A stretch of 64,000 bases of DNA from Roseiflexus sp. (GCA_017743475.1 JAGHYV010000001.1:1-64000); one strand, 5' to 3'; numbered from the stretch's first letter, positions 183 through 19,961 are shown. Numbers and translations are program-made. Notes: generated by a model not told the origin, from the sequence alone.

Positions 183-475
183 GTCCACCCTTCAACTTTC
201 AACGGTCATAACCCCAATGTTCCAACGCTCAACCTTCAACCCTCAACCTTCAATCCTCGGTTCGCTTGTTTTCATACAAGGCTTCCTGATGCCATAAAAC
301 AAGAGTGTCCTCGCAGCCAGGTCGTTATTTGTCAAGTCGCAGATCGCATCAGGAAGTCATCCGTCAAAAAATGAGCGAACGGTGAGTTCAACGTTCAACG
401 TGCAACCTTCCAACCTTCAACCTTCCAACCTTCAACTTTCCAACCCTCAACCTTCAACCTTCAACGTCCCCTTCC
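183..475. repeat. Heptanucleotide tandem repeat blocks (TTCAACC/TTCAACG type)
   Basis: Two blocks, about 183-268 and 386-475, are built from 7-base units such as ttcaacc, ttcaacg and ttccaac, with single-base variation. The second block contains the stop codon of the cbiG-cbiH-cysG fusion at 454, so the last few codons of that gene are repeat-derived. Apart from these repeats and the hairpins at 20-116, I see nothing else in the first 453 bases. Confidence 0.85.
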
Positions 476-2865
476 CCCAGCCACTGTGCAAGCGCGTTGC
501 GCAGGGCAATGGCGCGCGCCGGAGCAACCCCGCCGCTGCTGACCGCAATCGTGATACCACCGGAACGGTGAACGGCGGGAACGTGGAAACTCCCCTCCTC
601 TGGTGCGTCAACAACGTTGCAGAGGATGCCTGCGGCAGCAGCATCACGCGCAATCTGTGAGTTGACATTGCGCCGATCGGTGGCAGCGAACACCAACCGT
701 GCGCCTGCGAGATCGCCCGGTTCGTATTCGCGCCGGTTCCACATGATCAGCCCGGCATTCGCCCAGGCTGCCAGGTAGGGTGTTGCAGTCGGACTAACCA
801 GGCGCACCGGTATGCCTGCGTTCAGCAATCCGCGCACCTTGCGTTCGCCCACGGCGCCACCGCCAATCACCACGGCAGACAGATCGCCCGGATTGATCAG
901 CGTCACCGGATAGTCACGCTGCGTTCCGGGGATCGGTGTATCACGTCGGTCAACTGCCGTCTCATCCAGAACGACCTGCTTCTTCCGTGCATACCCGCGT
1001 GGCGTCGCCATGCGGTTGCCAAGAATGTAACTCTGACTGCTTCCGATCAGCACAATGGTGAACATATCGGCGCATGATGGGTCTGCGGCTTCCAGGGTCG
1101 TCAGGATGATGCGTTCATCGGCGCGGGTAACGTTGCGCCCGAATGCGACCGGCGTCGTCGGTGGACGGTGGGTGCGCATGATGCTCAGAGCAGCATCGAG
1201 TTGCCAGTCGCGCCCGCGCGACCGCGGGTTGTACAGCGCGACGATAAAATCCGCCTGCGCTGCTGCCCGCAACCGGCGTTCGATCACATCCCAGGGTGTC
1301 AACAGATCGCTCAAGCTGATGATGCACATGTCGTGACCAATTGGTGCGCCGAGTCGCGCAGCGAGCGCCTGGAATGCGCTGATTCCTGGCACAACATCGA
1401 CTGCCGGATGATCGCCGGTCCACCCTTCGTCACGCAGTATCTCGAAAACAGGCGCAGCCATGGCGTAGATGCCAGCATCGCCGCTGCTGATCAGCGCCAC
1501 CCGGCGACCGGAGCGCGCAACCGCGATTGCCTGCCGCGCGCGTCCGATCTCGTCGCCCATCGCCGGGGTGACGATCACTTCCTGCCGGGGTTGTAACAGG
1601 GGACGGATCAGATCAATGTAGACATGATACCCCGCAACTACATCGGCATCGCGCAACGCTGCGTGCGCCGCATATGTAAGATGGCTCAGATCGCCGGGTC
1701 CGATGCCGACGAGGGTGAGAACGCCAGAGGGAGGCGCTGCTGGCACTGCTGTTGCGGTCGTCACAACACCTGATGACCGGTATGGCGCATCGTTCCGTAG
1801 CGCCACGGCAATGGTGCACCGCTGGAAGGTGCGCTTCGGAACGATCAGATCACCGCCGCCTGCAATCACAGCGCACGGCTCGGCAACACCCGGCAGGTCG
1901 ACGTGGGTGACGGCGGCGCTTGGGCTGAACCTTGCGGCGTCGAGGGCAGTAATCTCAGAGCGCGAGACCACGCGGAGCGGAATGTTGAGTCGACCGGCGA
2001 TCTCAACCAGTCCCGGCTCGTCGGCTTTGATGTCGGCAGTGGCGATCACCCCGATGCAGCGCGGATCCAGACCGGCATCGGCAAGTGTGACACGCAGCGC
2101 AGCGTGTAACTCGTTGACCGGCGTTCCCCGCCGACATCCGATCCCCACCGCCAGAACCGGTGGCAGGTAGCGCACACCCTTCGCCCGCAGCGCCTGCCAG
2201 AGATCGTCAATCTGGCGGTGCGTTACCAGGATTGCTGCCGCAAACCAGGGATCTGTCAGGCTCGCTGGATCATCAACATATTCGAGGTTCGCGCAATTGG
2301 CCCCCTCTTCGATCACCAACCGATGTGCGTCGGGGAGCGCTGGATCGACAAAGCACCCCACCAGGTCGCCGTTCACCAGGCACGCCATCGTATGCGTCAG
2401 CGCCGAGTCATTGGCGATTCGCCAGCCCCTGTCGCGTCCCAGCAGATCGAGTGCTGGAAGTCCGCGCGTATCACTGGCAGTGGTGATGGCAGCCTGTCCG
2501 CCAGTGATCACGGCGATCCGACGCGCCAGATCGTTCGCGCCCGCCTGGTGCCCGCCAAGCAGGGGAATGACAAACCTGCCGCTCTCATCGAGCACAACGA
2601 CCGCCGGATCGATGGTCTTGCGGGCAATGAGCGGAGCAATGGCGCGCACGGCGATGCCGCTCGCCATGATCAGCACCAGCGCACGATAGTTGCCCCAGCA
2701 GGTGCGCACTTCGTCCAGCAGTGCGGTGGTGTATGGCGTTGCGTCTGGCGCTTCAGCAGCGAATTTTGCTGGTACGTGCGCGGCGGCGCGCAGTTTCACC
2801 GCTAGGCGCGCCGCCAGGCGTGTTCCTGCGCGGGTAACGGCAATGATGACGGTGTCTGCATTCAC
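454..2865 (-). CDS. Triple fusion: CbiG, CbiH and precorrin-2 dehydrogenase (CysG-N/Met8-like)
   Basis: A cytoplasmic enzyme of corrin ring synthesis with three domains in one 803-aa chain. Residues 1-355 match CbiG (cobalt-precorrin-5A hydrolase, opening the lactone; note the PLLGGHQAGAN stretch). Residues about 380-630 match CbiH/CobJ (C17-methyltransferase and ring contraction; VGIGPGDL and SSGDAGIYAMA SAM-methylase motifs). Residues about 652-797 match the NAD-binding Met8/CysG N-domain (VVIGGGAVGERK), which oxidises precorrin-2 to sirohydrochlorin. The start overlaps the cbiF stop by 4 bp (ATGA). The stop codon falls inside a heptanucleotide repeat, so the last residues (GDVEG) are probably not ancestral. 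Domain calls are by recognisable motifs; the separate activities are known for the families, not shown here. Confidence 0.93.
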   Translation of the reverse strand: MNADTVIIAVTRAGTRLAARLAVKLRAAAHVPAKFAAEAPDATPYTTALLDEVRTCWGNYRALVLIMASGIAVRAIAPLIARKTIDPAVVVLDESGRFVIPLLGGHQAGANDLARRIAVITGGQAAITTASDTRGLPALDLLGRDRGWRIANDSALTHTMACLVNGDLVGCFVDPALPDAHRLVIEEGANCANLEYVDDPASLTDPWFAAAILVTHRQIDDLWQALRAKGVRYLPPVLAVGIGCRRGTPVNELHAALRVTLADAGLDPRCIGVIATADIKADEPGLVEIAGRLNIPLRVVSRSEITALDAARFSPSAAVTHVDLPGVAEPCAVIAGGGDLIVPKRTFQRCTIAVALRNDAPYRSSGVVTTATAVPAAPPSGVLTLVGIGPGDLSHLTYAAHAALRDADVVAGYHVYIDLIRPLLQPRQEVIVTPAMGDEIGRARQAIAVARSGRRVALISSGDAGIYAMAAPVFEILRDEGWTGDHPAVDVVPGISAFQALAARLGAPIGHDMCIISLSDLLTPWDVIERRLRAAAQADFIVALYNPRSRGRDWQLDAALSIMRTHRPPTTPVAFGRNVTRADERIILTTLEAADPSCADMFTIVLIGSSQSYILGNRMATPRGYARKKQVVLDETAVDRRDTPIPGTQRDYPVTLINPGDLSAVVIGGGAVGERKVRGLLNAGIPVRLVSPTATPYLAAWANAGLIMWNRREYEPGDLAGARLVFAATDRRNVNSQIARDAAAAGILCNVVDAPEEGSFHVPAVHRSGGITIAVSSGGVAPARAIALRNALAQWLGEGDVEG

Positions 2866-3680
2866 GCCTGATCTCCTCTCGTGTCGCTGCGACGAAAACG
2901 ATGCGTGTACGTCCGGTCGTAGAGACGACTCGCAGCTCGCCGCGGCGATCGTTTCAGCGCAGGATCGAGCGCCGGGCTGACCAGAATGAGCGCCTGGCGC
3001 GTGAAGCCAGCAGCTTTAACCTTTGCTGCAATATCACCCAGCGTTCCCTGGATGATCGTTTCGTCGGGCCAAGTGACGCGGTGCAGCACAACGACCGGCG
3101 TCTCGGGGGTGTACGCGCCGCCTGCCAGGAGTTCGTCCACCACGCGCTGCATGCGGGTGACGCTAAGGTAGATCGCCAGCGATACGCCGTGCGCCGCCAG
3201 ACGTTGCAGTTCTTCGCGCGGCGGCATAGGAGTGCGCCCGGCAGCACGGGTAAAAATGATAGTCTGCACCACGTCGGGGACTGTCAGTTCGACGCCGAGA
3301 CGGGCAGCAGCGGCGAATGCTGCCGTGACCCCTGGAACGATCTCGTAGGGAATGCCACGTTCGTCGAGCGCCGCCATTTGCTCGTGAATGGCACCATAAA
3401 GCGATGGATCGCCGCTATGTAGGCGAGCAACTACCTTCCCGGCACGCGCAGCGTCGCTCATCAGGGCAACGATCTGTTCCAGATGCATGTCCGCCGTGCC
3501 GATAATTTGGGCATCAGGACGGGCGTAGGCAGCGGGCAGGGCAACATCCACCAGACTGTCGGCGTAGAGGATCAGATCAGCCTGTGTCAGCAGGTCACGC
3601 CCACGCACCGTGATCAGATCAGGCGCGCCGGGTCCTGCGCCGATGAAATAGACGGTTCCGGCGACGGCAGCGTACATCAT
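2862..3680 (-). CDS. cbiF: Cobalt-precorrin-4 C11-methyltransferase
   Basis: SAM-dependent methyltransferase (CbiF/CobM) that methylates C11 of cobalt-precorrin-4 in the cytoplasm. The 272-aa product is of usual family length and has the tetrapyrrole methylase signatures: an N-terminal GAGPGAPDLIT, HSGDPSLYGAIHEQ in the middle and PGVTAAFAAAA after it. A basic tail of about 25 residues (KRSPRRAASRLYDR...) extends past the fold. Start and stop overlap both neighbours by 4 bp (ATGA), indicating translational coupling with cbiL upstream and the CbiG fusion downstream. Confidence 0.95.
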   Translation of the reverse strand: MMYAAVAGTVYFIGAGPGAPDLITVRGRDLLTQADLILYADSLVDVALPAAYARPDAQIIGTADMHLEQIVALMSDAARAGKVVARLHSGDPSLYGAIHEQMAALDERGIPYEIVPGVTAAFAAAARLGVELTVPDVVQTIIFTRAAGRTPMPPREELQRLAAHGVSLAIYLSVTRMQRVVDELLAGGAYTPETPVVVLHRVTWPDETIIQGTLGDIAAKVKAAGFTRQALILVSPALDPALKRSPRRAASRLYDRTYTHRFRRSDTRGDQA

Positions 3681-4405
3681 ACACGGTCTCCACGGCGAAT
3701 GATTACCAGCGAAAGATAGGGGCGCCGCTGTAGGTCGAGTGTGCGCAGGTCACGCACGATCAATTCTTCCGGCATCCCGACACGCTCGGCGTACAGCGCA
3801 TGGGCGAGCAGGTCGAGTTCGGTGAGCGCCGCCACGATTGCCGGCAGTGCTGAACCCGCTTTCATCAGCACAATCGTCTCGAAGTCGGTCAACAGTCGTC
3901 GCAGCGTTGCTGCGTCCGTTTCGTAACTGGCGGGCATGATGATCATGCGCTCATCACCCATCGCCAGCGGAATGCCAGCCGTTGCTGCCGCTGCCGCAAA
4001 CGATGTCACGCCGGGGATGATCGCGACCGTCACCGGCGCCTGAATGGCCGCCAGTTCGCGCCAGAGATAGACGAAGGTGCCGTAGAGCAGCGGATCGCCC
4101 AGCAGCAGATATGCTCCCCGGCGATGCCCGTTCAGTTCGGTCACAATCGTTTCGGCGGCAGCGCGCCATGCTGGGCGCAACTGTCCGGCGTCGCGGGTCA
4201 TCGGCAGCGGCAATGCAACGACCGTTTGACGAGCGCGGTCGATCCAGGGTTCGGCGATGCGCAATGCCAGGCTCTGATCGCCGTCGCGGCTCTGGGGAAC
4301 GAAGATGACATCCGCCGCCTGGAGCGCACGTAGTCCTTTGAGGGTGATCAATTCTGGATCGCCCGGTCCCATGCCAATGGCGATCAATGTTGCAGGTTCA
4401 GTCAT
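3677..4405 (-). CDS. cbiL: Precorrin-2/cobalt-factor II C20-methyltransferase
   Basis: SAM-dependent methyltransferase (CbiL/CobI) adding the C20 methyl group that is later lost with ring contraction. Motifs include GMGPGDPELITLKG near the start, LLLGDPLLYGTFVYL and IIPGVTSFAAAAA. The ORF track starts at 4486, but the extra 27 residues are arginine/serine-rich and lie inside the upstream gene. The ATG at 4405 gives the family-like start MTEPATLIAIG and overlaps the cbiET stop by 8 bp. The stop overlaps the cbiF start (ATGA). Confidence 0.94.
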   Translation of the reverse strand: MTEPATLIAIGMGPGDPELITLKGLRALQAADVIFVPQSRDGDQSLALRIAEPWIDRARQTVVALPLPMTRDAGQLRPAWRAAAETIVTELNGHRRGAYLLLGDPLLYGTFVYLWRELAAIQAPVTVAIIPGVTSFAAAAATAGIPLAMGDERMIIMPASYETDAATLRRLLTDFETIVLMKAGSALPAIVAALTELDLLAHALYAERVGMPEELIVRDLRTLDLQRRPYLSLVIIRRGDRV

Positions 4406-5624
4406 GCCGGTTCTCTTTCTGCCATGCGATGATGAAGACGGGATTGAGCGCTTCCAGACGCAGCGACGACTGGATCGGCGCGCCACGATTGATCTGCGCC
4501 TGGACGACCCGCGCTTCGGGGAGCAGTACAGTCACCTGATGCACATGATCTAGCGTGACCAGGTTCAAGACCAGGCGACCATGCGGTTTGAGACGTTGCT
4601 GCACCATGCTAACGATTTCCTTCAGGCGTCCGCCACTTCCGCCAATGAAGATAGCGTGCGGATCGGGAAGACCGACGCAGGCTTCCGGCGCTTCACCGTG
4701 GATGACCCGCAGGTTCGGCGCCGGGAAGCGCTGAAGATTTTCTCGCACATGCGCAATAAATCGTTCACGTCGCTCGATGGCATACACCCGCGCAGTCGGG
4801 CAGGCGCGCGCCGCTTCGATGCCAACCGAACCGCTCCCTGCACCGATGTCCCACAACGTCTCGCCCGGTTGCAGCGCAAGTTCCGCCAGGCTCAGCAGGC
4901 GCACTTCGCGTTTGGTGATCTGTCCGGCTTCAGTGCTAAACGCTTCGTCGGGTAAACCGGGCGGCACGGCAGTCTGGCGGGCGACGTCATCATTCCAGAC
5001 CACGAACACATTGAGCGTCGCAAAGGTTTGATCCGCTGCGTCACGGAGCGTTGTGCGCACCACTCGTTGTGCAGGACCGCCCAGGTGCTCGCAAATAGCG
5101 CAGCGTGTGGTTGGTGACAGACCGGCTTCCAGCAGCGCAGTCGCAATCCGGGCAGGCGTATGCTGCTGATCGGTCAGAATGGCAGCTTTCGGTGCGTGCA
5201 GTACGCCGGAAATCACCGCATCGAGCGGGCGCCCATGGGCGCTGAGAAGCACTGCATCGTGCCAGGGTTCCGCCAGCGCCGCGAATGCCAGTTGCGCCGA
5301 TGTCGGCGCCGGGATAATGTCGAGCGCATCAGGTGGCAGCGCACGCCGCAGTGAGACGCCGATCCCATACCATAGAGGATCGCCCGACGCGAGCACGACC
5401 GCTGCTTCGCCACGTTCCCACGCCAGTTTCAGGCGCTCCAGCGCTGGTTCGACCTTGGCGCCGATGACCAGTCGCTCTCCAGTGTATGCCGGGAATGCTG
5501 CCAGGTGGCGTTGCCCGCCGACGAGCAGCGTTGCCTGGACGATCCGCTCGTACAGGGCGGAAGGCAGCCCCGCAGCGCCAGCATCGGTCATTCCCACCAC
5601 CAGAATCGGGCGACGCGCCGTCAT
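4398..5624 (-). CDS. cbiET: Precorrin-6Y C5,15-methyltransferase (decarboxylating), CbiE-CbiT fusion
   Basis: This 408-aa protein joins CbiE (C5 methylation; residues about 1-205, with VVLASGDPLWYGIG) to CbiT (C15 methylation and decarboxylation of the acetate side chain; residues about 215-400, with the class I SAM motif WDIGAGSGSVGIE). The fused arrangement corresponds to CobL of the aerobic pathway but is common in cbi clusters too. The start overlaps the cbiD stop by 4 bp and the stop overlaps the cbiL start by 8 bp. The C-terminal half includes IFIGGSGGRLKEI, a typical CbiT substrate-site stretch. Confidence 0.95.
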   Translation of the reverse strand: MTARRPILVVGMTDAGAAGLPSALYERIVQATLLVGGQRHLAAFPAYTGERLVIGAKVEPALERLKLAWERGEAAVVLASGDPLWYGIGVSLRRALPPDALDIIPAPTSAQLAFAALAEPWHDAVLLSAHGRPLDAVISGVLHAPKAAILTDQQHTPARIATALLEAGLSPTTRCAICEHLGGPAQRVVRTTLRDAADQTFATLNVFVVWNDDVARQTAVPPGLPDEAFSTEAGQITKREVRLLSLAELALQPGETLWDIGAGSGSVGIEAARACPTARVYAIERRERFIAHVRENLQRFPAPNLRVIHGEAPEACVGLPDPHAIFIGGSGGRLKEIVSMVQQRLKPHGRLVLNLVTLDHVHQVTVLLPEARVVQAQINRGAPIQSSLRLEALNPVFIIAWQKENRHD

Positions 5625-6862
5625 GACTCCTCCAGCATCTCGTCATCGTCATCGGCACCGAACGGAGCAGCGGCGAGCCGCTCAATCAGCGGACGGGTGT
5701 CGCCAACAGGAGCACTGGCGCGCGGGGGTCTGGGAACGCTGGCGCGAGCAATCACGCTGCCGTCAAAATCGACCAGAATGGTCTCGAACCCCATTGCACC
5801 GCCCTGCGCTTCAATAAACCGCAGGCAACTCGCCAGCGCCAGTTCGACGATGCGCTGAAGCGGCGCAGTCTGACCGTACTCCTGGCAGAGTTCCAGAAAG
5901 TGTCGCCCGGTGTTGGCATGCGCAACCGCCTCGACCAGTGCGTCAGGCGCACCAACATCGCGGCAGACCTGCGCCAGGAATCCGAAATCGACCTGATTCC
6001 CCGCCACGTGGGTCCGCATGTGTCCCTGAGCCGTTTTGACCATTTTGCCGATCATGCCGACAAATACGGCTTCTTCAACGCCGCATGCAACACAGGTTTT
6101 CAGCGCGTCGCCGGTAAAGACGCTCAACTCAACAAACGCCAGTTCCGGTAGTTCGGGGAAGATGCGCATGGCAAACTTCTCCGAGCGACCACCAGTACAC
6201 AGCACAACCTTTGATACGTGGTTGCGCGCTGCCATTTCAACTGCCTGAACGACACTGGCGCGCCAGGATGCGGTACTGTATGGAAAGACCTTGCCGGTCG
6301 TGCCAAGGATGCTGATTCCGCCAATGATCCCCAGGCGCGGGTTGAGTGTTTTCTGCGCCAGGCGTTCGCCGTCAGGCACGCTGATGATGATCTCCAACCC
6401 ATTGCGTTCAAGGAAGGCTTCACCGTCAGGCGCACACTCACGAACCGCGTCGCGCACATTGTCGGTGATCTGCTGGCGTGGCACCGGATTGATTGCCGGA
6501 CCGCCGACCGGCAATCCGAGACCTGGCAGTGTCACCCGTCCTACCCCGACACCGCCATCGATGGAAATGCCTGCACCCGTCACACGCCGCACCTGCGCGC
6601 AGATCAGTGCGCCATGCGTCACATCCGGATCATCGCCGCCATCCTTGACCATGCAGCAGAAAGCCCAATCCTCGCCCTGCCGCATCTCGACCGGCGTCAT
6701 GGTTGCGGTTTCGCCGATTGGCAGCGTAATGGTTACCTGTGGGGGCCACTGACCGGTCAGCAGAGCAATGGTCGCGGCTTTCGCGGCAGCTGCGGCATTG
6801 CTGCCGGTGGTGTAGCCAGTGCGGAGTCCACGTTTGTTGCGCGGCGGAACAGTGTCACTCAT
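5621..6862 (-). CDS. cbiD: Cobalt-precorrin-5B C1-methyltransferase
   Basis: CbiD methylates C1 in the anaerobic (early-cobalt) pathway; it is unrelated to the other ring methylases and is a marker for that pathway. The 413-aa product begins with the family hallmark LRTGYTTGSNAAAAAKAA, followed by LPIGETATM and the stretch KDGGDDPDVTHGA. The C-terminus after about residue 370 is a proline-rich then acidic tail (ADDDDEMLEES). The start shares one base with the cbiC stop, and the stop overlaps the cbiET start by 4 bp. Confidence 0.95.
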   Translation of the reverse strand: MSDTVPPRNKRGLRTGYTTGSNAAAAAKAATIALLTGQWPPQVTITLPIGETATMTPVEMRQGEDWAFCCMVKDGGDDPDVTHGALICAQVRRVTGAGISIDGGVGVGRVTLPGLGLPVGGPAINPVPRQQITDNVRDAVRECAPDGEAFLERNGLEIIISVPDGERLAQKTLNPRLGIIGGISILGTTGKVFPYSTASWRASVVQAVEMAARNHVSKVVLCTGGRSEKFAMRIFPELPELAFVELSVFTGDALKTCVACGVEEAVFVGMIGKMVKTAQGHMRTHVAGNQVDFGFLAQVCRDVGAPDALVEAVAHANTGRHFLELCQEYGQTAPLQRIVELALASCLRFIEAQGGAMGFETILVDFDGSVIARASVPRPPRASAPVGDTRPLIERLAAAPFGADDDDEMLEES

Positions 6863-7530
6863 CAGTAGACGGCTGTGTTATCGACTCCGGCAGCAAGACG
6901 CAGGAGTGCATTCACAATTGCAGCGGCGACGGTTGACCCGCCCTTGCGCCCAACCGTCACAATCCAGTGTGTATCGGTACGCGCCATCAGCGCCTCTTTA
7001 CTCTCAACGGCATGCACAAAACCGACCGGTACGCCAATAACCAGCGCTGGACGCGCGCCACTGTTGATCAGGCGCAACAGCTCATACAGTGCAGTCGGGG
7101 CATTGCCGATAGCGACGACCGCGCCGTCGAGCAGGCCATTCGCATGGGCAACGCGAATGCCAGCCGCGCTGCGGGTCAACCCATCATCGTCAGCAATCGA
7201 CAGCGCCTCACGCGAGTCGTTCAGGCAGTGCAGCGCACCGCCGAACTCGCGCACCCGCCGCTCGTTAATACCAGCACGTACCATATGCACATCGGCAAGC
7301 ACGTGACATCCGCGACGCAGCGCTGCAACCCCGGCTTCAACAGCGCCAGGACTGGCGCGCGTGATGGTTGCAAACTCGAAATCCGCTGTGCTGTGAATGA
7401 TCCGTTCGACGACCGCGCTGAGCGGCGCTTCGATATGGAAACCACGCTGCTCGAGTTCGGCGCGAATAATCGCAAACGACCGCGCAGCAATTTTAGCAGC
7501 GGTCAGCGTTTCAGCAGGAAATTCACTCAT
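6862..7530 (-). CDS. cbiC: Precorrin-8X methylmutase
   Basis: CbiC/CobH moves the C11 methyl to C12, giving cobyrinic (hydrogenobyrinic) acid. The family sequence ERIIHSTADFEFA carries the catalytic histidine, followed by LADVHMVRAGI and the C-terminal VTVGRKGGSTVAAAIVNALL. The track uses a TTG at 7542; the ATG at 7530 gives MSEFPAETLT and overlaps the upstream stop as TGATG, which I prefer. This makes 222 aa, close to the family norm. Confidence 0.94.
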   Translation of the reverse strand: MSEFPAETLTAAKIAARSFAIIRAELEQRGFHIEAPLSAVVERIIHSTADFEFATITRASPGAVEAGVAALRRGCHVLADVHMVRAGINERRVREFGGALHCLNDSREALSIADDDGLTRSAAGIRVAHANGLLDGAVVAIGNAPTALYELLRLINSGARPALVIGVPVGFVHAVESKEALMARTDTHWIVTVGRKGGSTVAAAIVNALLRLAAGVDNTAVY

Positions 7531-8048
7531 CACTCCTCCCAACCCTTCATGCGGGACGCAACGCGCGCGACACGGCGACCCAGCGCACGTGCCTGCGCGA
7601 GATCCTCTTCCGTCAAAACGCCAACAGCCGTTGCACCGTAGTACGAACCGGCGCGTTCCATCGTTGGACTCCAGGGGAGACCGACGATGATCATCCCTGA
7701 ACCCAGGAACCAGTGCAGCACATTCAGCAACGTAAACTCTGTACCAGAATGACGCCCAGCGCTACTGGTGAATGCCGCGCCGACTTTGCCCGCCAGGCTG
7801 CCCTCTTCCCACAGATCGCCGGTGGTGTCGAGCCAGCGCTTCAACGTTCCTTTGATGCCAGTCCAGTTCGGTGTTCCGATTATGATCGCATCCGCCTCCA
7901 GCAGATCGCTCTTCTCCGCCCTGGTTGGCTGTTTAATCGTCACAGTGACGCCAGGCACGCTGGCAGCGCCCTCAGCGATGGCCTGCGCCAGCGCCGCAAC
8001 CTGATTCCCGACATCATGCAGAATGAATACGTGACAGGAAGCAGTCAT
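7530..8048 (-). CDS. Flavodoxin-like NAD(P)H:quinone/FMN oxidoreductase
   Basis: A 172-aa flavodoxin-fold protein in the middle of the cobalamin operon. GTPNWTGIKGTLKRWLDTTGDLW and FTSSAGRHSGTEFTLLNVL resemble the FMN-binding loops of WrbA-type quinone oxidoreductases. The ORF track begins at 8099, but the ATG at 8048 has a strong ribosome site (gtgaggagactggcgATG) and starts directly with the fold (MTASCHVFILHD). Its stop is coupled to cbiC by TGATG. Cobalamin synthesis needs reductases (precorrin-6A reductase, Co(II) reduction before adenosylation) and no cbiJ is in the window, so a redox role in the pathway is plausible but only inferred. Confidence 0.75.
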   Translation of the reverse strand: MTASCHVFILHDVGNQVAALAQAIAEGAASVPGVTVTIKQPTRAEKSDLLEADAIIIGTPNWTGIKGTLKRWLDTTGDLWEEGSLAGKVGAAFTSSAGRHSGTEFTLLNVLHWFLGSGMIIVGLPWSPTMERAGSYYGATAVGVLTEEDLAQARALGRRVARVASRMKGWEE

Positions 8049-8131
8049 CGCCAGTCTCCTCACATAACCCGGAACGACAGGGAAGCGTCGATTGTGCAAC
8101 GGGGATGGTCTTTCTCATTATACCGCACAGA

Positions 8132-9547
8132 TCATCCCAGGACATGCTCTTTCCAGTAGTGATGGGTCTTGGCGACAGCAGTGATGACATTCTTGATCTC
8201 CCCGTCCAGCCGGAAGTCGGGTCCGGCAGGGAGATAAAGAGTCGTTCCTTCGCGGCGCACACTCACATTTTCGACAACAATCGCGCGCAGCAACCAGATT
8301 GCCATCTCTTCGCTGTCGCAGACAATCCCGATCCATCCAGGTGCGCCATCGGTCACGACAGGCAACCCGGTGACCATCCGCAGACCACGGGCGAGTTCCG
8401 CAACAACGTCCCGGTATCGCTCCGGATTGGCAGCCACCGATTGGGGATCAACCGGCTCCAGCAATGTGCCACGGTGCGGAGGGCCGCCAGCCAGCGCTAG
8501 TTCGCAGAATGGATTGTTCGGGTCGTCCCTGCCCCACATACGATCCCATCCCACCCGTCCATCGTCATCGTAGATGAGCGGCGCAGAACCCATCGGTGCG
8601 GCACTTACCGGTGCGCCATTTCGGTAACGGGGCGGGAGAATTGCGGCAAGTCCCGGCGGAGGGTCGCTCGCCGTTCCACGCAAGCCGTGATGATGGTCGC
8701 TCATCTGTGGGTGACCGTACTCGTTCTCGAACCCCCGCATCAGCCGGCGATACTTGCACAGGTCGCAGTTGACCGTCGCCCTGCCATCGAGCGCTTCTTC
8801 GTAACGCTGCACGATGGCGTGCACAATACCCTCGTGCAATCCCAGATGTTGCGCCAGCAGGATGCGCGTCTCTGGATACTGGCGCCGCGCCTCGTCAACC
8901 TGCTGCGTTATGCGTTGATGAATGCGCCCGGTGAAGAGCAGGTAGGGAATGACGATGATCTGCTCTGCTCCCAACGCAACACAGTTTCGGATAGTGGTTG
9001 CAACGTTGGGACGGGTAATGCTGTAGAAACCGTACTCAACCCATCCAAATCCGCGCCCTTCCCACAGCAGACGCGCCATACGTGCAACATCGGAGTTGCT
9101 GTCCGGGTCGCTGCTCCCGCGCCCGATAAGTGCCAGCGCTGTCTTTTCGCGGGGAATGGTTGTGGCGACAGACGCATACGCCGTCTCGGTTCGCTCTGCA
9201 ACTGCCTGGAGCACCGTATACTGAACGCCCAGCGGCGCCCCATAGCGGATGTCGAGGTCTGGATAACGCATGCGCGCCTGATTGAGCGCCACCGGAATGT
9301 CATTCTTCTGGTGACCGGCAGCGCCAAGGAGCAACGGCAGCGCAACAATTTGCCGGAACCCCGCGCGCACACAGTTGTCGATTGCCTGCGCGATCGGCGG
9401 ATCGGCAAGTTCAAGAAAGCATAGTTGAACTACGGTGTTCAACCGCTCGCTAACCAGTGTCGCCATCTGGCGATACTCTGCCAGACCGGCAGGATCGTCG
9501 GTGCCATGACCGATTAGGAGAAGTGCAGTGTGATCGGAGTTAGACAT
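8132..9547 (-). CDS. cbiX: Sirohydrochlorin cobaltochelatase, double CbiX domain with extra C-terminal domain
   Basis: Inserts Co2+ into sirohydrochlorin, the committing step of the anaerobic route. Two CbiX repeats are visible: residues 1-125 with LLIGHGTDDP and GAAGHQKNDIP, and 135-250 with LIGRGSSDPDSNSD and PYLLFTGRIHQRI. These are followed by CDLCKYR (about 261-267), a histidine patch MSDHHHGLRG, and an uncharacterised domain (about 330-471: WDRMWGRDDPNNPFCELALAGGPPHRG). The start has a near-perfect Shine-Dalgarno (aaaggaggt, 7 nt before ATG). It overlaps the 3' end of cbiB by 34 bp. The CxxC and histidine patch could hold metal or an Fe-S cluster; that is inference. Confidence 0.92.
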   Translation of the reverse strand: MSNSDHTALLLIGHGTDDPAGLAEYRQMATLVSERLNTVVQLCFLELADPPIAQAIDNCVRAGFRQIVALPLLLGAAGHQKNDIPVALNQARMRYPDLDIRYGAPLGVQYTVLQAVAERTETAYASVATTIPREKTALALIGRGSSDPDSNSDVARMARLLWEGRGFGWVEYGFYSITRPNVATTIRNCVALGAEQIIVIPYLLFTGRIHQRITQQVDEARRQYPETRILLAQHLGLHEGIVHAIVQRYEEALDGRATVNCDLCKYRRLMRGFENEYGHPQMSDHHHGLRGTASDPPPGLAAILPPRYRNGAPVSAAPMGSAPLIYDDDGRVGWDRMWGRDDPNNPFCELALAGGPPHRGTLLEPVDPQSVAANPERYRDVVAELARGLRMVTGLPVVTDGAPGWIGIVCDSEEMAIWLLRAIVVENVSVRREGTTLYLPAGPDFRLDGEIKNVITAVAKTHHYWKEHVLG

Positions 9548-10494
9548 GCTAACGACCTCCTTTGTGAGAACTGCGTTATAACTCTATAACGTTGAACGTT
9601 GAACGTTACGAGCAGAACGCCGCCCGCCAGCAGCAGCGGCACGATACGCGCAATCCGGCGCGCCTCGCCGATCATGGCGGCGTCGGGCAGGCGCGAACCG
9701 CTTCCGAGAATGTAGTGCCCGCGTTTAGTAAGGGTCGTGTCGAGCGCACCTGCCATCGCCGCCATAGGCCACCCTGCATTCGGCGACGCAGTACGCCCGG
9801 CGTCACGGTGCGCAATCTGCCACGCGATCATCCCCCGTCCACACACAATCTGCGCAGCTACAGCAATGAGCGCCGCCGTAAGACGCGCTGGCAACAGGTT
9901 GAGCGCGTCGTCGAGCCGTGCCGCCGCCTTGCCCAGGTATTCGTAGCGCTCGTTCCGATACCCCCACATCGCGTCAGCCGTGTTCGACAGGCGGTAGACG
10001 GCGATGCCGGGTAACCCCCCAGCGAGAAGCGCCAGCGCTGGTGCAACCAGACTATCGCTCAGGTTCTCCGCCAGCGACTCGATCGCCGCACCTGCCACTT
10101 CATCGGCGCGGAGATCGGCAGTCGGGCGGCTCACCAGGTGCCACCCTAGCAGACGCCGCGCCTCTACCAGATCGCCGTGCTCCAGTGCTGCCTGCACCTC
10201 GCCGACTGCCCGATCCAGCCCACGGTATGCCATCAGGGTCGAGGCCGCCAGTCCCTGCACGACCGGATGACCCGGCAGCAGCGCCGCGACTGATCCGGTT
10301 GCTGCTGCGCCTGCTGCCAGCCACATCCCGCCCCACAGCATACGCGCTGTTGCGCCCTGGGGGGCAAACCGCTCACCCAGATGCATCCAGCGCCCCATGA
10401 GCGCCACCGGATGCCAGACATTCGGCGGATCGCCGAGCAATGCATCGGCAATCAACGCGATCAGGAGCGTTTGACTTCGGTGTGATAGATACAT
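9514..10494 (-). CDS. cbiB: Adenosylcobinamide-phosphate synthase
   Basis: Polytopic membrane protein joining the aminopropanol arm to adenosylcobyric acid. Typical CbiB/CobD features: IADALLGDPPNVWHPVALMGRW near the N-terminus, and SPNAGWPMAAMAGAL late in the chain. The track start at 10617 adds an arginine-rich stretch overlapping cbiO; the ATG at 10494 (MYLSHRSQTLLIALIAD) is the sensible start. The C-terminus after LLAGGVLLV runs through heptanucleotide repeats (TFNVQRY...) and across the first 34 bp of cbiX, so the last ~35 residues look acquired. Confidence 0.93.
   Translation of the reverse strand: MYLSHRSQTLLIALIADALLGDPPNVWHPVALMGRWMHLGERFAPQGATARMLWGGMWLAAGAAATGSVAALLPGHPVVQGLAASTLMAYRGLDRAVGEVQAALEHGDLVEARRLLGWHLVSRPTADLRADEVAGAAIESLAENLSDSLVAPALALLAGGLPGIAVYRLSNTADAMWGYRNERYEYLGKAAARLDDALNLLPARLTAALIAVAAQIVCGRGMIAWQIAHRDAGRTASPNAGWPMAAMAGALDTTLTKRGHYILGSGSRLPDAAMIGEARRIARIVPLLLAGGVLLVTFNVQRYRVITQFSQRRSLACLTPITLHFS
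9585..9612. repeat. Heptanucleotide repeat at the cbiB 3' end
   Basis: Units tataacg-ttgaacg-ttgaacg-ttacgag read on the plus strand, immediately upstream of the cbiX ribosome binding site. The same ttgaacg unit recurs at the ends of cobN and of the CbiG fusion. Confidence 0.8.
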
Positions 10495-10520
10495 TGTTTT
10501 ATCATGCAACGACCTGTACA

Positions 10521-10550
10521 GGCGCAGCAGCGCTGCGCCCCTACGGCGCC
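10521..10550. repeat. GTAGGGGCGCAGC hairpin element, copy 1
   Basis: On the minus strand this reads cgtaggggcgcagcgctgctgcgcc, a strong hairpin between cbiO and cbiB. Related copies lie at 20642-20665 and 23664-23688. The TAG stop codon of cbiO is part of the element's conserved GTAGGGGCGC edge. Confidence 0.75.
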
Positions 10551-11269
10551 GGGCCCAACAATGCCTGCAGATCGGGATCAGCGAAAACCTGCACCGGCGG
10601 CGCGGACGCAACCACACGCCCTTCGTGCATCACCACAACGGTATCAGCCCATTGCCGCGCTACGGTGAGATCATGCGTGGTGAGCAGTACCGTCACACCT
10701 TGTTCAACTAGTCGATCAAAGATCGCAAAGATCTGATAGCGCATCCACGGGTCCAGTCCGGATGTTGTTTCGTCTACCAGAAGAATGCGCGGCGCCATCG
10801 CCAGCACCCCTGCAAGCGCCACCAGCGACTTCTGCCCGCTGCTCAAGGCGTGGGTCGGGCGGTCGAGCAGATTGCTGATGCCGCATAGGTCTGCAGCTTC
10901 TGCCACCCGGCGACGCACGTCGGCGATGCTTAGCCCCAGGTTCATTGGACCAAAGCTGATGTCCTGAAGAACACTGGCGCTGAAGAGTTGATCATCGGGG
11001 TTCTGAAAGACCAGCCCCACCTGACGACGCACACGCAACAGACCGCGACGGGTATACTCCAATGGCGCGCCATCCAGACGCACCTGACCCTTCGCAGGGC
11101 GGAGAATGCCGTTGGCGTGCAGCAGAAGCGTGCTCTTACCAGCGCCGTTGCGCCCCGTCAGGGCGATACGCTGCCCGGTCGCAATCGACAGCGATGCGCC
11201 GCGCAGCGCCGGGATGGCGCTTCCGGGAAAGGCATAGTGCACGTCATCGAATTCGAGCAGCGCACTCAT
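10541..11269 (-). CDS. cbiO: Cobalt ECF transporter ATPase
   Basis: ATP-binding subunit of the CbiMNQO energy-coupling-factor transporter, located on the cytoplasmic face of the membrane and driving Co2+ uptake. The 242-aa protein has Walker A GRNGAGKST, the Q-loop VFQNPDDQLF typical of ECF ATPases, signature LSSGQKSLVALAG, and Walker B ILLVDETTSGLDP followed by the H-loop TTHD. Its start overlaps the cbiQ stop by 4 bp. The stop is supplied by the edge of an intergenic hairpin element. Confidence 0.95.
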   Translation of the reverse strand: MSALLEFDDVHYAFPGSAIPALRGASLSIATGQRIALTGRNGAGKSTLLLHANGILRPAKGQVRLDGAPLEYTRRGLLRVRRQVGLVFQNPDDQLFSASVLQDISFGPMNLGLSIADVRRRVAEAADLCGISNLLDRPTHALSSGQKSLVALAGVLAMAPRILLVDETTSGLDPWMRYQIFAIFDRLVEQGVTVLLTTHDLTVARQWADTVVVMHEGRVVASAPPVQVFADPDLQALLGPAP

Positions 11270-12036
11270 GCAATCATTCTCGCCAGCACCAGGCTAAGCG
11301 TCAGACCGACGCCGATCTGCCACATGCGCGGATCTCGCCGATAATCGAGCGGCAGAACCCGCAATGAACCATCAAACCCTCGGCTCTCCAGCGCCGTCTG
11401 AATCTGTTGACTGCGCCGGTAGGCATCAAGGAACAGACAACTGCCGATCAACGCTGCGCTACGCATCGCCGCGTGCAGTGTGTGATATCCCAGGCGCGCA
11501 TCCTGCGCTGTCACCATCCGCTCCAGACTGTCCAGCAGAACAAAGATCGCACGGTAGGTAAGCGCCATGATGTCGATCAACCCTTCCGGCAGCCGCATGC
11601 GCCGAAGCATCTCGATCAGATCGACCAGCGGCGTCGTCAGGATCAGAAAATTGAGCGCGGCAGCCGATCCCAGGGTGCGTGTCAGGACGTGCGCGGCCAG
11701 CATTAGCGACTTGTGCGTGGCGCTCACCCAGATCGGACCAAACTGCCACGCAAAGACCGGCGCTTCCGGCACGCTGCTGGCAACACTCAGGGCGATGCCG
11801 GCGACCGACAGACCTAGAAATGCGCCTTCAGTCAGCAGCACACTGGCAAATACACGCAGCGGCGTGCGCGCCCGCCACGTTGTGAGCGCCAGCATCCAGA
11901 CCAACGTGAGTATGCCGACTGCGGGATGATCCAGCGCCAGGCACAGGATGATTGCCAGCAACGCCAGCGCGCCTTTCTGTGACGGATCAACATCGCGCAG
12001 CGCATTCCCGAACGCATACCGATCAATGACACGCAT
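11266..12036 (-). CDS. cbiQ: Cobalt ECF transporter transmembrane subunit
   Basis: Membrane coupling (T) component of the cobalt ECF transporter. The sequence starts with the family-typical IDRYAFGNALRDVDPSQKG, has several hydrophobic helices, and contains the cytoplasmic coupling region RRMRLPEGLIDIMALTYRAIFVLLDSLERM with arginine-rich ends. The track uses a TTG at 12045; the ATG three codons later (12036) fits better. It lies 15 bp after cbiN and overlaps cbiO by 4 bp. Confidence 0.93.
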   Translation of the reverse strand: MRVIDRYAFGNALRDVDPSQKGALALLAIILCLALDHPAVGILTLVWMLALTTWRARTPLRVFASVLLTEGAFLGLSVAGIALSVASSVPEAPVFAWQFGPIWVSATHKSLMLAAHVLTRTLGSAAALNFLILTTPLVDLIEMLRRMRLPEGLIDIMALTYRAIFVLLDSLERMVTAQDARLGYHTLHAAMRSAALIGSCLFLDAYRRSQQIQTALESRGFDGSLRVLPLDYRRDPRMWQIGVGLTLSLVLARMIA

Positions 12037-12051
12037 CACAATCAACGCCTG

Positions 12052-12348
12052 CTAATCGCGGCGACGGCGCTCGCCATGTTTGAGACCGAAAAAGTAGCCG
12101 ATCAATCCGGCGCCAAGCCCCGCCTGGAGCGCAAACAGCAGGCTCTCCGTCTCACCGCCCGGCGGCTCGAAGATCGGCGCAAACCACGGCTCGTAATCCG
12201 GTGCAACTTCGGTGATCGCCGTTTCAGCAATGGTATCTGCGCCAGCAAACTCCGAGTCGCGGACTATCAACAATGGAACAATCGCCAGCACAACGACGAC
12301 CAGCAGCAGGATCAGTGACGTCGTCAACCCAAACGGTTTGCTGCTCAT
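12052..12348 (-). CDS. cbiN: Cobalt ECF transporter accessory subunit
   Basis: Small (98-aa) two-helix membrane subunit. The N-terminal helix (residues about 8-30), the extracellular segment [23 protein letters not shown] and the second helix [23 protein letters not shown] match CbiN, which is required for CbiM to load Co2+. The start overlaps the cbiM stop by 4 bp. Confidence 0.93.
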
Positions 12349-13094
12349 GCCTGCGCTCCTTTCAGCACACCGAGCGATTGCAGTTCCTTCTGCGCGTTTG
12401 CCTGCAATGCGTTGAAGATGAGCACCGTCAGGATGCCCTCACTGATCGCCAGTGGAATCTGCGTGACGGCGAAGATCGCGCCGAACCTGGCGAATGATGC
12501 CGTAAATCCCCCAACCGCATCGGGGTATGCCAGCGCCAGTTGCGCCGACGTGACCACGTAGGTGAAGAGATCCGCCAGCGCAGCCGCGAGAAAGACCGTC
12601 AGCCAGATAGGTGCGCGATCCTCCAACCCTTTCCAGATCAACCACGCCACGAACGGACCAACGACCGCCATACTGAATGCATTCGCGCCCAGCGTGGTCA
12701 GACCGCCGTGAGCGATAAGGAGCGCCTGGAAAAGAAGAACGATGCTCCCCAGCACACTCATCACCAGCGGACCGAACAGGATCGTCCCTAGACCGACACC
12801 GGTCGGATGACTGCTCGAACCGGTGACGCTTGGTATCTTCAGCGCGCTCAACACGAAGGCGAAGGCGGCGGCAAATCCGAGCAACAGGCGTGTCTCCGGC
12901 TTCTCGGCGATCAGGCGGTTGATCCGGCGCAGACCAAGCACCCAGAATGGGAGAACAACGATGAACCAGAACCCTGCCCAAACGGGCGGCAGAAAGCCTT
13001 CCATGATGTGCATGGCATATGCCGCACGCGACTCGAAGATGATGAGCAGCGCAGCGCCGATGACAACCGGCAGCCAGCGGTGCAGTGGTTTCAT
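12345..13094 (-). CDS. cbiM: Cobalt ECF transporter substrate-binding subunit
   Basis: Membrane protein that binds Co2+ outside the cell through its extreme N-terminus. A signal-like hydrophobic stretch of about 27 residues precedes [15 protein letters not shown], the conserved MHIMEGFLP metal-binding start of the mature protein. [19 protein letters not shown] is the second family signature. The track start at 13154 is rejected because the ATG at 13094 has a clear ribosome site (gagaggagtgctgtATG). The 117-bp gap to cobT includes a heptamer repeat, and I see no second riboswitch there. Confidence 0.94.
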
Positions 13095-13198
13095 ACAGCA
13101 CTCCTCTCTGCGATAACCTGTACTTGCCTCGCAAGGGCAGGGTTTTGCAGTCACGAAGCCTTCAAGACTTTCGCCTTGAATAAAAGTATGCTCCTGAT

Positions 13199-13219
13199 CG
13201 GTTCTCGGTTCTTAGTTCT
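13199..13219. repeat. Heptanucleotide repeat over the cobT stop codon
   Basis: Three units cggttct-cggttct-tagttct. The TAA stop of cobT (13212-13214, minus strand) lies within the repeat, as for cobN and the CbiG fusion, although the unit sequence here is different. Confidence 0.7.
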
Positions 13220-14273
13220 CGACCTTCCCCGACACTCCTGCCTCGCCGAATGTTGCCATCTCGTCGAGAATCTTGCACGCTGCCTGGCAGAGCGACATGC
13301 CAAGCACCGCGCCGGTCCCTTCGCCGAGACGCATCCCAAGGTCGAAGAGCGGTACAAGATCGAGACGGGTGAAGACCGCTTCATGCCCCCGTTCGACCGA
13401 ACGGTGTGCAGCGATCAGGTATGGTTGAACCGCTGGCGCCAGCGTCCAGGCGATGAGCGCCGCCGCCCCGGAGATGAACCCATCAATGACGACCGGCACG
13501 CGCCGCGCTGCGGCACCCAGCATAACTCCCGCCAACCCGCCGATCTCGAAACCGCCGACCTTCGCCAGCACATCCAGTCCATCGTTTGGGTTGGGGCGGT
13601 GGAGCGCCAGCGCCTGCTCGATCACCGCAATTTTGCGCGCAAGACCGGCATCATCGACACCGGTGCCGCGTCCGGTGACATCGGCGACCGGACGACCGGT
13701 AATTGCGGCAACGACTGCACTCGATGCAGTGGTGTTGCCAATGCCCATATCGCCGGTTGCCAGAAGATCAACGCCAGCATCGATGGCATCATGTGCGCAC
13801 GCGATGCCAGCCTCGACCGCCTGTTGCGCCTGCGTGCGGCTCATTGCCGGTTCGACCGAGAAATCCGCCGTGCCCATGCCCATTTTGCGGTTGATCAGTT
13901 CGGGATGCGACGGCAGGTTGGCCGCGACTCCCATATCCACTACAATCACACGCGCACCGACGTGACGGGCAAGCACGTTGATCGCCGCGCCGCCGTTGAG
14001 AAAGTTCAACACCATCTGCGCCGTGACTTCTGACGGATATGCGCTCACCCCACGACGCGCAACGCCGTGATCGGCAGCCATCACAATGACTGCCGGGTTG
14101 GTCAACCGTGGACGTTGCCTGCCGGTGATCCCCGCAATCTGGACCGACAACGCCTCCAGGCGCCCCAGCGCGCCCTGCGGCTTGGTCAGCACATCCTGCC
14201 GCGCCTGCGCCGCTGCTGCCGCAGCATCATCGAGTGGACCGATCCGTGCGATTGTTTCGGACAGCAGACTCAT
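13212..14273 (-). CDS. cobT: Nicotinate-nucleotide-dimethylbenzimidazole phosphoribosyltransferase
   Basis: Activates the lower-ligand base (dimethylbenzimidazole or a related base) as its alpha-ribotide. Motifs are typical: KPQGALGRLE near the N-terminus, VMAADHGVARRGVSAYP, TGDMGIGNTTASSA, and LGEGTGAVLG with the catalytic glutamate near the C-terminus. The track begins at 14432 with a segment derived from the spacer; the ATG at 14273 (MSLLSETIARIG) is preceded by aaaggag 10 nt upstream and gives 353 aa, the family norm. It lies between cobN and cbiM in the same orientation. Confidence 0.95.
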   Translation of the reverse strand: MSLLSETIARIGPLDDAAAAAAQARQDVLTKPQGALGRLEALSVQIAGITGRQRPRLTNPAVIVMAADHGVARRGVSAYPSEVTAQMVLNFLNGGAAINVLARHVGARVIVVDMGVAANLPSHPELINRKMGMGTADFSVEPAMSRTQAQQAVEAGIACAHDAIDAGVDLLATGDMGIGNTTASSAVVAAITGRPVADVTGRGTGVDDAGLARKIAVIEQALALHRPNPNDGLDVLAKVGGFEIGGLAGVMLGAAARRVPVVIDGFISGAAALIAWTLAPAVQPYLIAAHRSVERGHEAVFTRLDLVPLFDLGMRLGEGTGAVLGMSLCQAACKILDEMATFGEAGVSGKVEN

Positions 14274-14420
14274 GGGGTATGGTCTCCTTTCTTTTCTTTT
14301 GGTGGCGGACGAAGGGATTCGGGGCAATAAGACGCTCCAACCGACGAGTGCAGTGCGCCCCTGCGTGACGTTGGTTCCACCTCGCACCTTCCTGTACAGC
14401 AATTGGAACCTTCCTACCTT

Positions 14421-14500
14421 CCCGACGTTCAACGTTCAACCTTGCCACGTTCACCCCTCTCCCGACGTTCAACGTTCAACCCTGCTACGTTCAATCCCTC
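14421..14500. repeat. Two 40-bp direct repeats with internal heptamers
   Basis: cccgacgttcaacgttcaac... occurs at 14421-14460 and again at 14461-14500 with few differences. The repeats encode the last ~24 residues of CobN (GLNVAGLNVERRERGERGKVER) and supply its stop codon. Confidence 0.85.
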
Positions 14501-17500
14501 CCGCCACGCATCACCCTGATCCAGAAGCGCCTCCAGGGTTGCACGGGCTTCGGGAGACGGATTCGCCCACATCCCACGTCCAATCGCCTCGTACAGACGT
14601 TCAGCCATTGCCTGCAACGCCCAGGGGTTGACCTGTTCCAGCCATTGTTGCACAGCCGGATCACGCAGATAGCATGCGGTCACCTGCTCGTACATCCAGT
14701 CATCAAGCACCTCAGCAGTTGCATCGTAGCCGAAGAGATAATCAACCGTGGCGGCGAGTTCCAGCCCGCCTTTGTAACCGTGGCGTTGCATACTGGCAAT
14801 CCACTTTGGGTTCGTCACCCGCGCGCGAAAGACGCGACGCGCCTCCTCGCGCAGATCGCGGGTGCGCGGACGCGCCGGGTCGCTGCTGTCGCCAAAGTAG
14901 CGCGCCGGATTCTTTCCCGTGAGGGCGCGGATGGTTGCGATCATCCCGCCGTGAAATTGCAGGTAGTCATCGCTGTCGAAGATGTCATGCTCGCGCGTGT
15001 CCTGGTTTTTTGTCGCAACTTGAACCTTGCTCAGCGCTGCAGCAAACGCCGTTTCGGCGGGAGTTCCCTGCTCGCTGGCGGTGTAAGCATACCCGCCCCA
15101 TGCAAGATACACACGGGCGAAGTCGGTGTCGCGCTCCCAATTCTGGGCATCGATCAGCGGCAGAATGCCGGCGCCGTAACTGCCCGGCTTGCTGCCGAAA
15201 ATGCGGTAGGCAGCCTCACGTCGCGCCTCCTCGACCGTCTTCCCGGCTGACTGAAGCGCCTGCGCCGTCTCCAGCGCATGTTTGCGCGGGAAATTCATCT
15301 CTGGCGGCTCGTCGAGCGCAAGAACCGCCTGCACTGCCTGATCGATCAGGGCGATCAGGTGCGGAAAGGCGTCACGGAAGAACCCGGAAATGCGGCAGAC
15401 CACGTCGATGCGTGGGCGCCCCAACTCTTCCAGCGGCACGATGTCGATTCCGACCACACGCCGATTCTCGCGCTGCCAGCGCGGACGCACGCCGAGCAAT
15501 GCCAGCGCCTGCGCAATATCATCGCCTGCCGTGCGAATGGCGCTCGTTCCCCAGATGCTCAGCCCGACACTTTCGGGGATTTGCCCATACTCGCGTTGGT
15601 AGCGGGCGATCAGGTCGCGCGCCAACCTCTCGCCAGTCTGCCATGCAGCGACGCTGGGAAGCGCGCGCGGATCGATGCCGTAGAAGTTGCGCCCGGTCGG
15701 CAACACATGCGCCATGCCGCGCGTCGGCGCGCCGCTCGGCCCCGGCGGCACAAAACGCCCCTCCAGAGCCGCGAGCAGGTGTGCAATCTCGTCGTGCGCG
15801 CTCTGCCGCAGATTCGGCACGAGTGTGTCGCATGCGTACCGCAATGCCGCAGCGATGCGCGCGTCCGGTTGTGCAGGACATATCCCGGCGACCAACTGCT
15901 CAATCGCCTCAGAATGCCAGTCAAGCGCTTCCAGGCGTCGCAGCAACTCTTTGCTCAACGCCTCGATATGCGCAATCATGTCGGCATTCGTCTGGAATAC
16001 TGCACCGGCGTCATCGTCCGACGTGCTCTTATTCCGTTCCCGCCGCGCGCCGGGACGCTCCCGCAGAGCGTTCCAGTCTTCGCCCAGCGCTGCGGCAACG
16101 CTCTCCGGCAAACTGGGAGCATCCAGGTTTGGCAAACGCAGCAGGTGGTAGATCAGTTCCACCAACTGCTCACCGGCTGGCATCTCGCCGAGAATGTGCA
16201 ACCCATCGCGGATCTGCGCACCGGTGAGTTCGCACAGATACCCCTCGATATCTTCCAGCAGATGCGCCACCTCGCGCCCCTCCATTTCTGCCAGAATGGT
16301 CGGCGTGCCGTCTTCGAGAAAACTGCCATCCCACTCGTGCCGGTGGTCACCATGGTCTGCCTGCACGATGTAGCGCAGGTCGTCATCCAAGTGCGAGCGC
16401 TGCAACGCTTCCCAGATCTGACGCTGGAGTAGCGGCAGTTTCCCCGGATCGAGATGCTCGGTGCGGTAGTATTCATCCACCAGGTGCGCCAGTTCCGCCA
16501 GATCTCCATATGCTCCGGCGCTAGTCATTGGCGGGGTCAGGTGATCGACAATGATGGCGTGCGCCCGACGCTTCGCCTGCATCCCTTCGCCGGGATCATT
16601 GATGATGAAAGGATAGATGAGCGGCAGATCGCCGAGAAACTGATCGGGGAAGCATGTCGCGCCAAGCCCCACACCTTTGCCCGGCAACCATTCGAGCGTG
16701 CCATGCTTGCCGAGATGCACAATCGCATCCGCCTGCCACTCATCGCGCAACCAGCGGTAGAGGGCGTAATAATTGTGCGGCGGCGGTAGATCAGGGCGAT
16801 GGTAGATCGCGTTTGGGTCCATGTCGTAACCGCGCGGCGGTTGCAACGCCACGAACACATTGCCGTACTCCAGCCCGGCAAGCGCCAGATCGCCGTTGTG
16901 GACATACGCCGCGCCCGGTGGTTGACCCCACTGCCGGATCATCGCGTCCTGGAGCGCACCCGGCAGATCGGCGAACCAGCGCTTGTACTGCGCCCCGGGG
17001 ACACGGTACGCCTGGATCAGTTGCTCGGTCGTCAACCAGGTTTCGTCGTACGAACAGCGCGCAATCAGGTCGGCAATCAACCGGTCGCCAGAATCGGGCG
17101 GATCGCCTATCCGATAACCGGCAGCATGCATCGCCCGGAGGATGCGCATCAGCGAAGCAGGTGCGTCAAGACCGACCGCGTTGCCAATGCGCTGCGCTTT
17201 GGCGCTGCTATTGGTGAAAATGAAGGCGATTCGTTTCTCCGCGTTCGGTTTGTGGCGCAGTCGCGCGAGGCGACGGGCAAGCCCCGCGAGACGTTCCATC
17301 CGCTCTTCGTCGGCAACCGAGCGCGCCGGTGCTTCACCCTGCTGCTCTTTGAATGCGACCGGCACACCGATGATCCGCCCGTCGAACTCTGGGATCGCCA
17401 CATTCATCGCCGTGTCGAGTGGACCAAGCCCTCGACCGTTGCGCAGCCACTCGTCACGCGACGTGCTGCTCACTAGCGCCTGGATCACCGGAACGTCGAG

Positions 17501-19927: not shown

Positions 19928-19961
19928 TGTTCACCCTCCCTGGCTCGAGAAGGGCTGAACA
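19928..19961 (-). promoter_or_regulatory. Second leader hairpin between aptamer and terminator
   Basis: Inverted repeat TGTTCACCCT ... AGGGcTGAACA with a 13-base loop. It lies between the aptamer and the terminator and could be part of the switching structure; no competing pairing with the terminator was worked out. Confidence 0.45.

Follow-up and report, generated by a model that had tools for sequence, protein, structure and literature searches.

The window analyzed here, comprising the first 64 kb (64,000 nucleotides) of one contig of Roseiflexus sp. (GCA_017743475.1, JAGHYV010000001.1:1-64000), contains a cobalamin operon with arrays of 7-bp tandem repeats at several of its gene junctions. 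The window genome as a whole is made up of 206 contigs and 4.97 Mb. Roseiflexus is a hot-spring bacterium, and the cobalamin genes and their relatives, among them a Roseiflexus MAG at 79% on CbiX, put the window in or near this genus. The gene identities proposed by an earlier, sequence-only reading were confirmed by Pfam, all on the minus strand: a cbiG fusion gene joining CbiG to a tetrapyrrole methylase and an NAD-binding domain (454..2865; CbiG_N/mid/C, TP_methylase and NAD_binding_7), cbiX (8132..9547; CbiX), cbiB/cobD (9514..10497; CobD_Cbib), cobT (13212..14273; DBI_PRT) and cobN (14429..18808; CobN-Mg_chel). A cobalamin riboswitch (RF00174, 58.9 bits) was located upstream of the operon at 19956-20100 on the minus strand.

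Repeats in the window were detected using Tandem Repeats Finder (TRF) and direct sequence inspection, which gave 7-bp tracts at 223-258, 387-469, 9588-9607, 13198-13221, 14425-14453 and 14465-14480. These were assigned to two unit families, family A (GTTGAAN and variants) and family B (GTTCTCA, GTTCTCG, GTTCCTG and GTTCTTG; sense consensus GTTCYYN). The cbiG fusion gene carried at its 3' end a family A array in the sense orientation, (GTTGAAG)n with GTTGGAAG 8-mers (387..469, minus strand; TRF score 96-109), and a second, more degenerate family A array lay farther 3' (191..258, minus strand; from sequence, the TRF call at 223-258 and the array scan). At cbiB a family A array in atypical orientation was found (9588..9607, plus strand; 100% match by TRF), at the 3' end of cobT a family B array (13198..13221, plus strand), and at the 3' end of cobN a degenerate family A block (14416..14494, minus strand; TRF period 22) which includes both of the last two tracts. 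The cbiB and cobT assignments were supported by comparison with a related genome, G002, the latter also by a further Roseiflexus locus, L031, and the cobN assignment by C-terminal comparison. The cbiB and cobN tracts are short, with two to three clean units, and singly unremarkable; the orthologous junctions in G002 bear the same motifs, and the cbiG array junction in that genome contains 20 units.

The sequence-only reading held that four genes end inside or across such tracts and that three of the stop codons lie within them. This was correct for cbiG (TGA 454-456, part of the array at 387..469), cobT (TAA 13212-13214, inside the family B array, where the cobT sense strand reads GAACTAA GAACCGA GAACCGA) and cobN (TGA 14429-14431, inside the degenerate block). 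It did not apply to cbiB: because the sense TTCAACG repeat is open in all three frames, cbiB is read through its own tract, and its end at 9514 falls 34 nt into cbiX. Stops inside (GTTGAAN)n or (GAACTGA)n are automatic, since any frame of those strands meets a TGA within 21 nt.

With respect to distribution beyond the window, arrays were scanned in G002, a complete single-contig genome of the same genus (5,801,598 bp; 92% nucleotide identity to the window genome). In all, the analysis covered 2.4 Mb of G002 (41%) and about 9% of the window genome, with gene calls from a hexamer-model gene finder made for this analysis rather than curated annotation; this finder recovers the cobalamin operon. 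An initial 1.6 Mb of G002 contained 118 arrays at lag 7, versus 1 in Markov-simulated sequence; lag 14 (twice 7) gave 89, and lags 4, 5, 8, 10, 11, 13 and 16 gave 3 to 13 each. A reversed-sequence control was dropped in favor of lag and permutation tests, as it is invalid for family A and for a third family, C (unit GATAGCC), whose anchor words GTTG and GATAG are the same when read backwards. The 2.4 Mb yielded 150 groups of gap, family and strand across 130 gaps, with 6 arrays in gene interiors and arrays in only 6/651 gaps shorter than 60 bp. These degenerate 7-bp head-to-tail units, in many copies and mostly extragenic, have the features of heptameric simple-sequence repeats of the short tandemly repeated repetitive (STRR) type. 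Families A and B were found in 6/6 genomes of the genus. Most other genomes of the order were without arrays, the exceptions including G008, G009, G037, G038, G041 and G055; in G055 and G037, which belong to another family of the order, TTCAACA arrays were observed, frequently arranged in inverted pairs separated by about 30 bp (minus strand, then plus strand).

Heptamer arrays anchored at gene boundaries are thus a genome-wide feature of the genus that the window genome shares, and not the property of one operon that the sequence-only reading had described. Arrays occurred at 94/1273 codirectional junctions of the G002 sample (about 7%), and the cobalamin operon was at most mildly rich in them: the probability of at least 4 of 13 junctions was about 0.012, and at least 4 arrays were present in 2.8% of 13-junction stretches in G002. 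An operon-specific device was rejected on these grounds.

For strand and position relative to genes, each combination of gap, family and strand contributed one count, and arrays no more than 50 bp from a boundary were considered. The hypothesis of polarity arose from the initial 1.6 Mb of G002, and the count reported here covers the 2.4 Mb that include it. Family A at stops was in the sense orientation (GTTGAAN)n, that is outward, in 55 cases versus 10, while family B at starts was (GTTCYYN)n toward the start in 29 versus 0. Family B at stops was mostly reversed (GAACTGA; 11:7), and family C was outward at both stops (12:1) and starts (3:0). When only high-scoring flanking genes were admitted, the counts were 42:5 for A at stops, 17:0 for B at starts and 9:1 for reversed B at stops. 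The same polarity was obtained in the window genome (A at stops 22:2, B at starts 13:0), which is a partial and non-independent replicate, being a close relative of G002 with some arrays common by descent. A gene-caller artefact behind the polarity was considered and rejected, because adjacency of a stop-rich array to a start would still have been registered, whereas 0/29 such cases were seen.

Position was tested by permutation against uniform placement, using gaps 150 bp or longer and a distance limit of 30 bp from the boundary. Inside this limit, family A was found at the stop in 17/27 gaps (3.9 expected, p<=5e-5) and at the start in 0/27, and family B at the start in 13/27 (3.3 expected, p<=5e-5). 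Boundary placement in long gaps was overall 3-8 times more frequent than expected, with densities of 1.58/kb near stops versus 0.03 mid-gap for A and 1.08/kb near starts versus 0.04 mid-gap for B. All 14 of the 14 codirectional gaps that contained both families, against an expected co-occurrence of 3.4, were ordered stop, A sense, B sense, start. About half of the 28 start-side B arrays terminated 0-6 nt 5' of the start codon without a Shine-Dalgarno sequence (for example GTTCTCAGTTCTC followed by ATG); genome-wide, 63% of starts are Shine-Dalgarno-like. Family A therefore stands on and just after stop codons and family B just before start codons, with B reversed at some stops, and where both are present the layout is stop-A-B-start. 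The earlier proposal of a systematic invasion of intercistronic junctions was borne out, position and strand in G002 being far from random; its view that arrays mark 3' ends gave only half of the picture, since family B is anchored with fixed polarity at start codons.

Comparison between genomes indicated that the arrays change rapidly. Gaps matched between the window genome and G002 numbered 103, of which 16 had an array in G002 and 9 of these 16 had the same family and strand in the window genome. Copy number differed between the species, and the median difference in gap length was 109-191 bp with arrays versus 1 bp without. The variation seen was between species, while phase-variable contingency repeats are defined by copy-number changes that switch expression within one population. 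The cobN product ended ...WREGLNVAGLNVERRERGERGKVER in the window versus ...WREGVERGSVERGGVER in G002, with about 20 non-conserved extra residues in the former and 13 in the latter, and Chloroflexus homologues end earlier. The prediction that copy number alters C-termini and spacing agrees with these cobN tails and gap lengths. In three Roseiflexus genomes, including G002 and L031, cobT ends GK(V/I)EN* because its stop belongs to GAGAACTGAGAACC or GAGAACTAAGAACC, the stop context being GAGAAC[TGA/TAA]GAACC; Chloroflexus cobT ends in unrelated sequence. Distant homologues were found to be without array-encoded tails, and with placement also far from random, neither of the conditions that the sequence-only reading had named as a refutation applied. 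L031 shares the cobT array with the window, and its cobN junction carries another repeat. Its cbiG has no array and ends GATGAACGT[TGA]A, about one A unit, so that a single array-like word (GATGAACGTTGAA) is present at the stop.

The explanation we favor, to which we would give about an even chance, is that the arrays are seeded at gene boundaries, change by slippage and are shaped by translation. Short boundary words which contain the stop itself, such as GAG AAC TGA or CGT TGA A, would pre-exist and act as seeds, and the seeded arrays would lengthen and shorten through slippage and unequal recombination; together these steps would explain why strand is fixed, why the arrays sit at boundaries and why copy number changes. 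The cobT stop context in the three Roseiflexus genomes and the L031 cbiG stop with about one A unit may represent such seeds. Translation would then determine which arrays survive. At 3' ends, a sense strand carrying TGA or TAG in each of its three frames would close an invaded gene within few codons and block read-through, while at 5' ends a pyrimidine-rich sense strand without Shine-Dalgarno-like words and mostly stop-free could adjoin a start codon. A B array at a start is probably a Shine-Dalgarno-independent leader, or at least no hindrance to initiation.

Several observations weigh against this explanation. The inference of seeding and slippage draws on two junctions, the opposite strand is found in 10 family A arrays close to stops as well as in the cbiB tract of the window, and gene starts derive from the home-made caller. 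In the six genus genomes ATG soon after sense B was more frequent than GTA (139 vs 56), yet ATG was frequent after antisense B as well (99 cases, 44 of them in G004), and such whole-genome pattern counts were supportive in G000 and G002 without being specific; the start-codon signal consequently rests on the gene-level analysis. Finally, B is concentrated in the ribosome-binding region, where a merely tolerated repeat should be rare, and this concentration fits positive selection or a directed process equally well.

Positive selection is the core of a serious rival, in which B would be a binding site for S1 or another RNA-binding protein governing translation start, A would take part in termination, in the processing of mRNA 3' ends or in insulation, and copy number would tune the effect. 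The sequence-only reading had likewise suggested that the repeats could tune coupling or mRNA processing between genes. We regard this rival as unlikely. The precise abutment of B to start codons without a Shine-Dalgarno sequence is in keeping with it, as are the constant stop-A-B-start order, the locations common to both species and the similarly placed TAACTGA repeats of Beggiatoaceae, for which MacGregor advanced this idea (PMC4679880). However, only about 7% of codirectional junctions carry arrays, a given junction can differ greatly in copy number between the genomes, and array presence differs at the L031 cobalamin junctions. Folding of the window tracts against shuffles was unremarkable for three of four (z -0.85, +1.14 and +0.22), and the cbiB/cbiX junction alone folded better than shuffles (z -2.93). 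When four A-B gaps of G002 were folded, two were no better or worse than shuffles, one was weakly better and one better, and RNA structure as a purpose of the arrays was rejected on these results. Intrinsic terminators and sigma-70 promoters were no more numerous at junctions than expected by chance. A broader formulation, that the two complementary arrays are a general intercistronic punctuation with A as an all-frame stop tail, B as a Shine-Dalgarno-free leader joined to the start and copy number setting spacing and expression, appears doubtful to us.

A purely neutral filter, with slippage occurring anywhere and surviving where harmless in non-coding gaps, would make the link to gene ends a by-product. 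The near absence of arrays from gene interiors and from gaps under 60 bp, the fast turnover of copy number and the automatic nature of the in-array stops are all compatible with it. Such tolerance alone predicts mid-gap arrays and random strand, and the opposite was seen: in long gaps arrays crowd the boundaries and are scarce in the free middle, B occupies the most constrained part of the gap, and strand is fixed in a manner that differs by family and boundary. This result favors boundary seeding and leaves the neutral filter strained and rather improbable.

A directed polar process was also weighed, in which repair or end-joining, or transcription-linked exposure of single strands at gene borders, would add units with the same strand outward. 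Families B and C do show the same outward strand at starts and stops (B 29:0 and 11:7 or 9:1; C 3:0 and 12:1), including in convergent and divergent gaps, and GGGAATC repeats in Xanthomonas and Nostoc have the same outward geometry (PMC4692102). In contrast, family A breaks the outward rule at starts and the TAACTGA repeats of Beggiatoaceae face starts in the opposite sense; no enzyme candidate came to light, none having been looked for, and we consider such a process very unlikely. The idea that arrays delimit mobile gene cassettes or recombination breakpoints is hardly credible: mapping of one flank only was somewhat commoner at array junctions (14/40 vs 37/183 mapped junctions), but contig ends, some perhaps caused by the arrays, confound this excess, and there were 0 array junctions with both flanks mapped but separated and 0 genes with B at both ends.

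No description of Roseiflexus heptamer arrays was found in a literature search, the cover of which did not extend to subscription journals. Cyanobacterial STRRs are degenerate intergenic heptamer arrays with several unit families per genome, and in both respects they resemble the arrays described here; to our knowledge, neither boundary polarity nor an A-B order has been described for them. The Roseiflexus arrays can further be compared with two other systems. The GGGAATC and GGGGA(C/T)T heptamers of Xanthomonas and Nostoc have a G-rich, quadruplex-forming unit (PMC4692102, which also mentions Calothrix heptanucleotides). As in Roseiflexus, their positions are shared between species while length is variable; unlike the single unit that serves at both boundaries there, Roseiflexus has two main families with different boundary preference, in the order stop-A-B-start, and the consensus units GTTGAAN, GTTCYYN and GATAGCC lack G3 runs and so are not of the quadruplex type. 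The GGGAATC rule (coding strand downstream, non-coding strand upstream, within 50 bp) fits the outward strands of B and C and family A at stops, but not family A at starts. TAACTGA direct repeats occur in Beggiatoaceae, some Cyanobacteria and Bacteroidetes; in Beggiatoaceae they form arrays of 2-6 units that end a few nt before start codons, usually without a Shine-Dalgarno sequence (PMC4679880). These too are 7-bp arrays abutting starts, and TAACTGA differs by a single base from GAACTGA, the B unit in reverse. They lie on the sense strand before the start, whereas in Roseiflexus the related word is on the opposite strand (sense TCAGTTC), and their description includes no stop-anchored partner family such as Roseiflexus has. 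Similar repeats are therefore known in other bacteria, and it is the ordered two-part layout which appears to be previously undescribed.

Heptamer repeats in bacteria have so far been noted piecemeal, with no function assigned. Two families at opposite gene boundaries, with near-absolute strand rules and a fixed order that partly matches reports from unrelated phyla, make it possible to test two alternatives: arrays are seeded at gene borders through a general mutational route, or they are selected by the start and stop of translation. Annotation is also affected, as open B arrays are easily mistaken for N-terminal extensions and A or B arrays for C-terminal tails. At G002:C1:1687819 and 2869698 the gene finder called open B arrays as N-terminal peptides like VLGSWFSVLGSRF, which are probably false extensions.

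Repeats of other kinds were observed in the same regions. In Chloroflexus (L033-L038), other simple repeats of the AACGCAAAGGCGC and GCATCGCAACGCGAT types were present at the ends of cbiC, cbiE and cbiF. In G002, GC-rich tandem repeats of about 24 bp lay between a cobalt-transport ATPase gene and cbiB (G002:C1:700700-700900; L046 about 700-900), and this block is almost missing from the window genome. Near the cbiG-distal array, positions 1-125 of the window contained GC-rich, partly palindromic repeats of the gtctgcgggcgggacgcccgcgc type, a different class of extragenic repeat. A CRISPR direct-repeat match (RF01356) was found at 27413-27436 on the plus strand, with a heptamer pair of the family C type, ATCGGCT, about 100 bp away at 27532-27546. 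At 52982-53164 a 36/72-bp tandem repeat (TRF score 289) with a length that is in frame was located inside an open reading frame.
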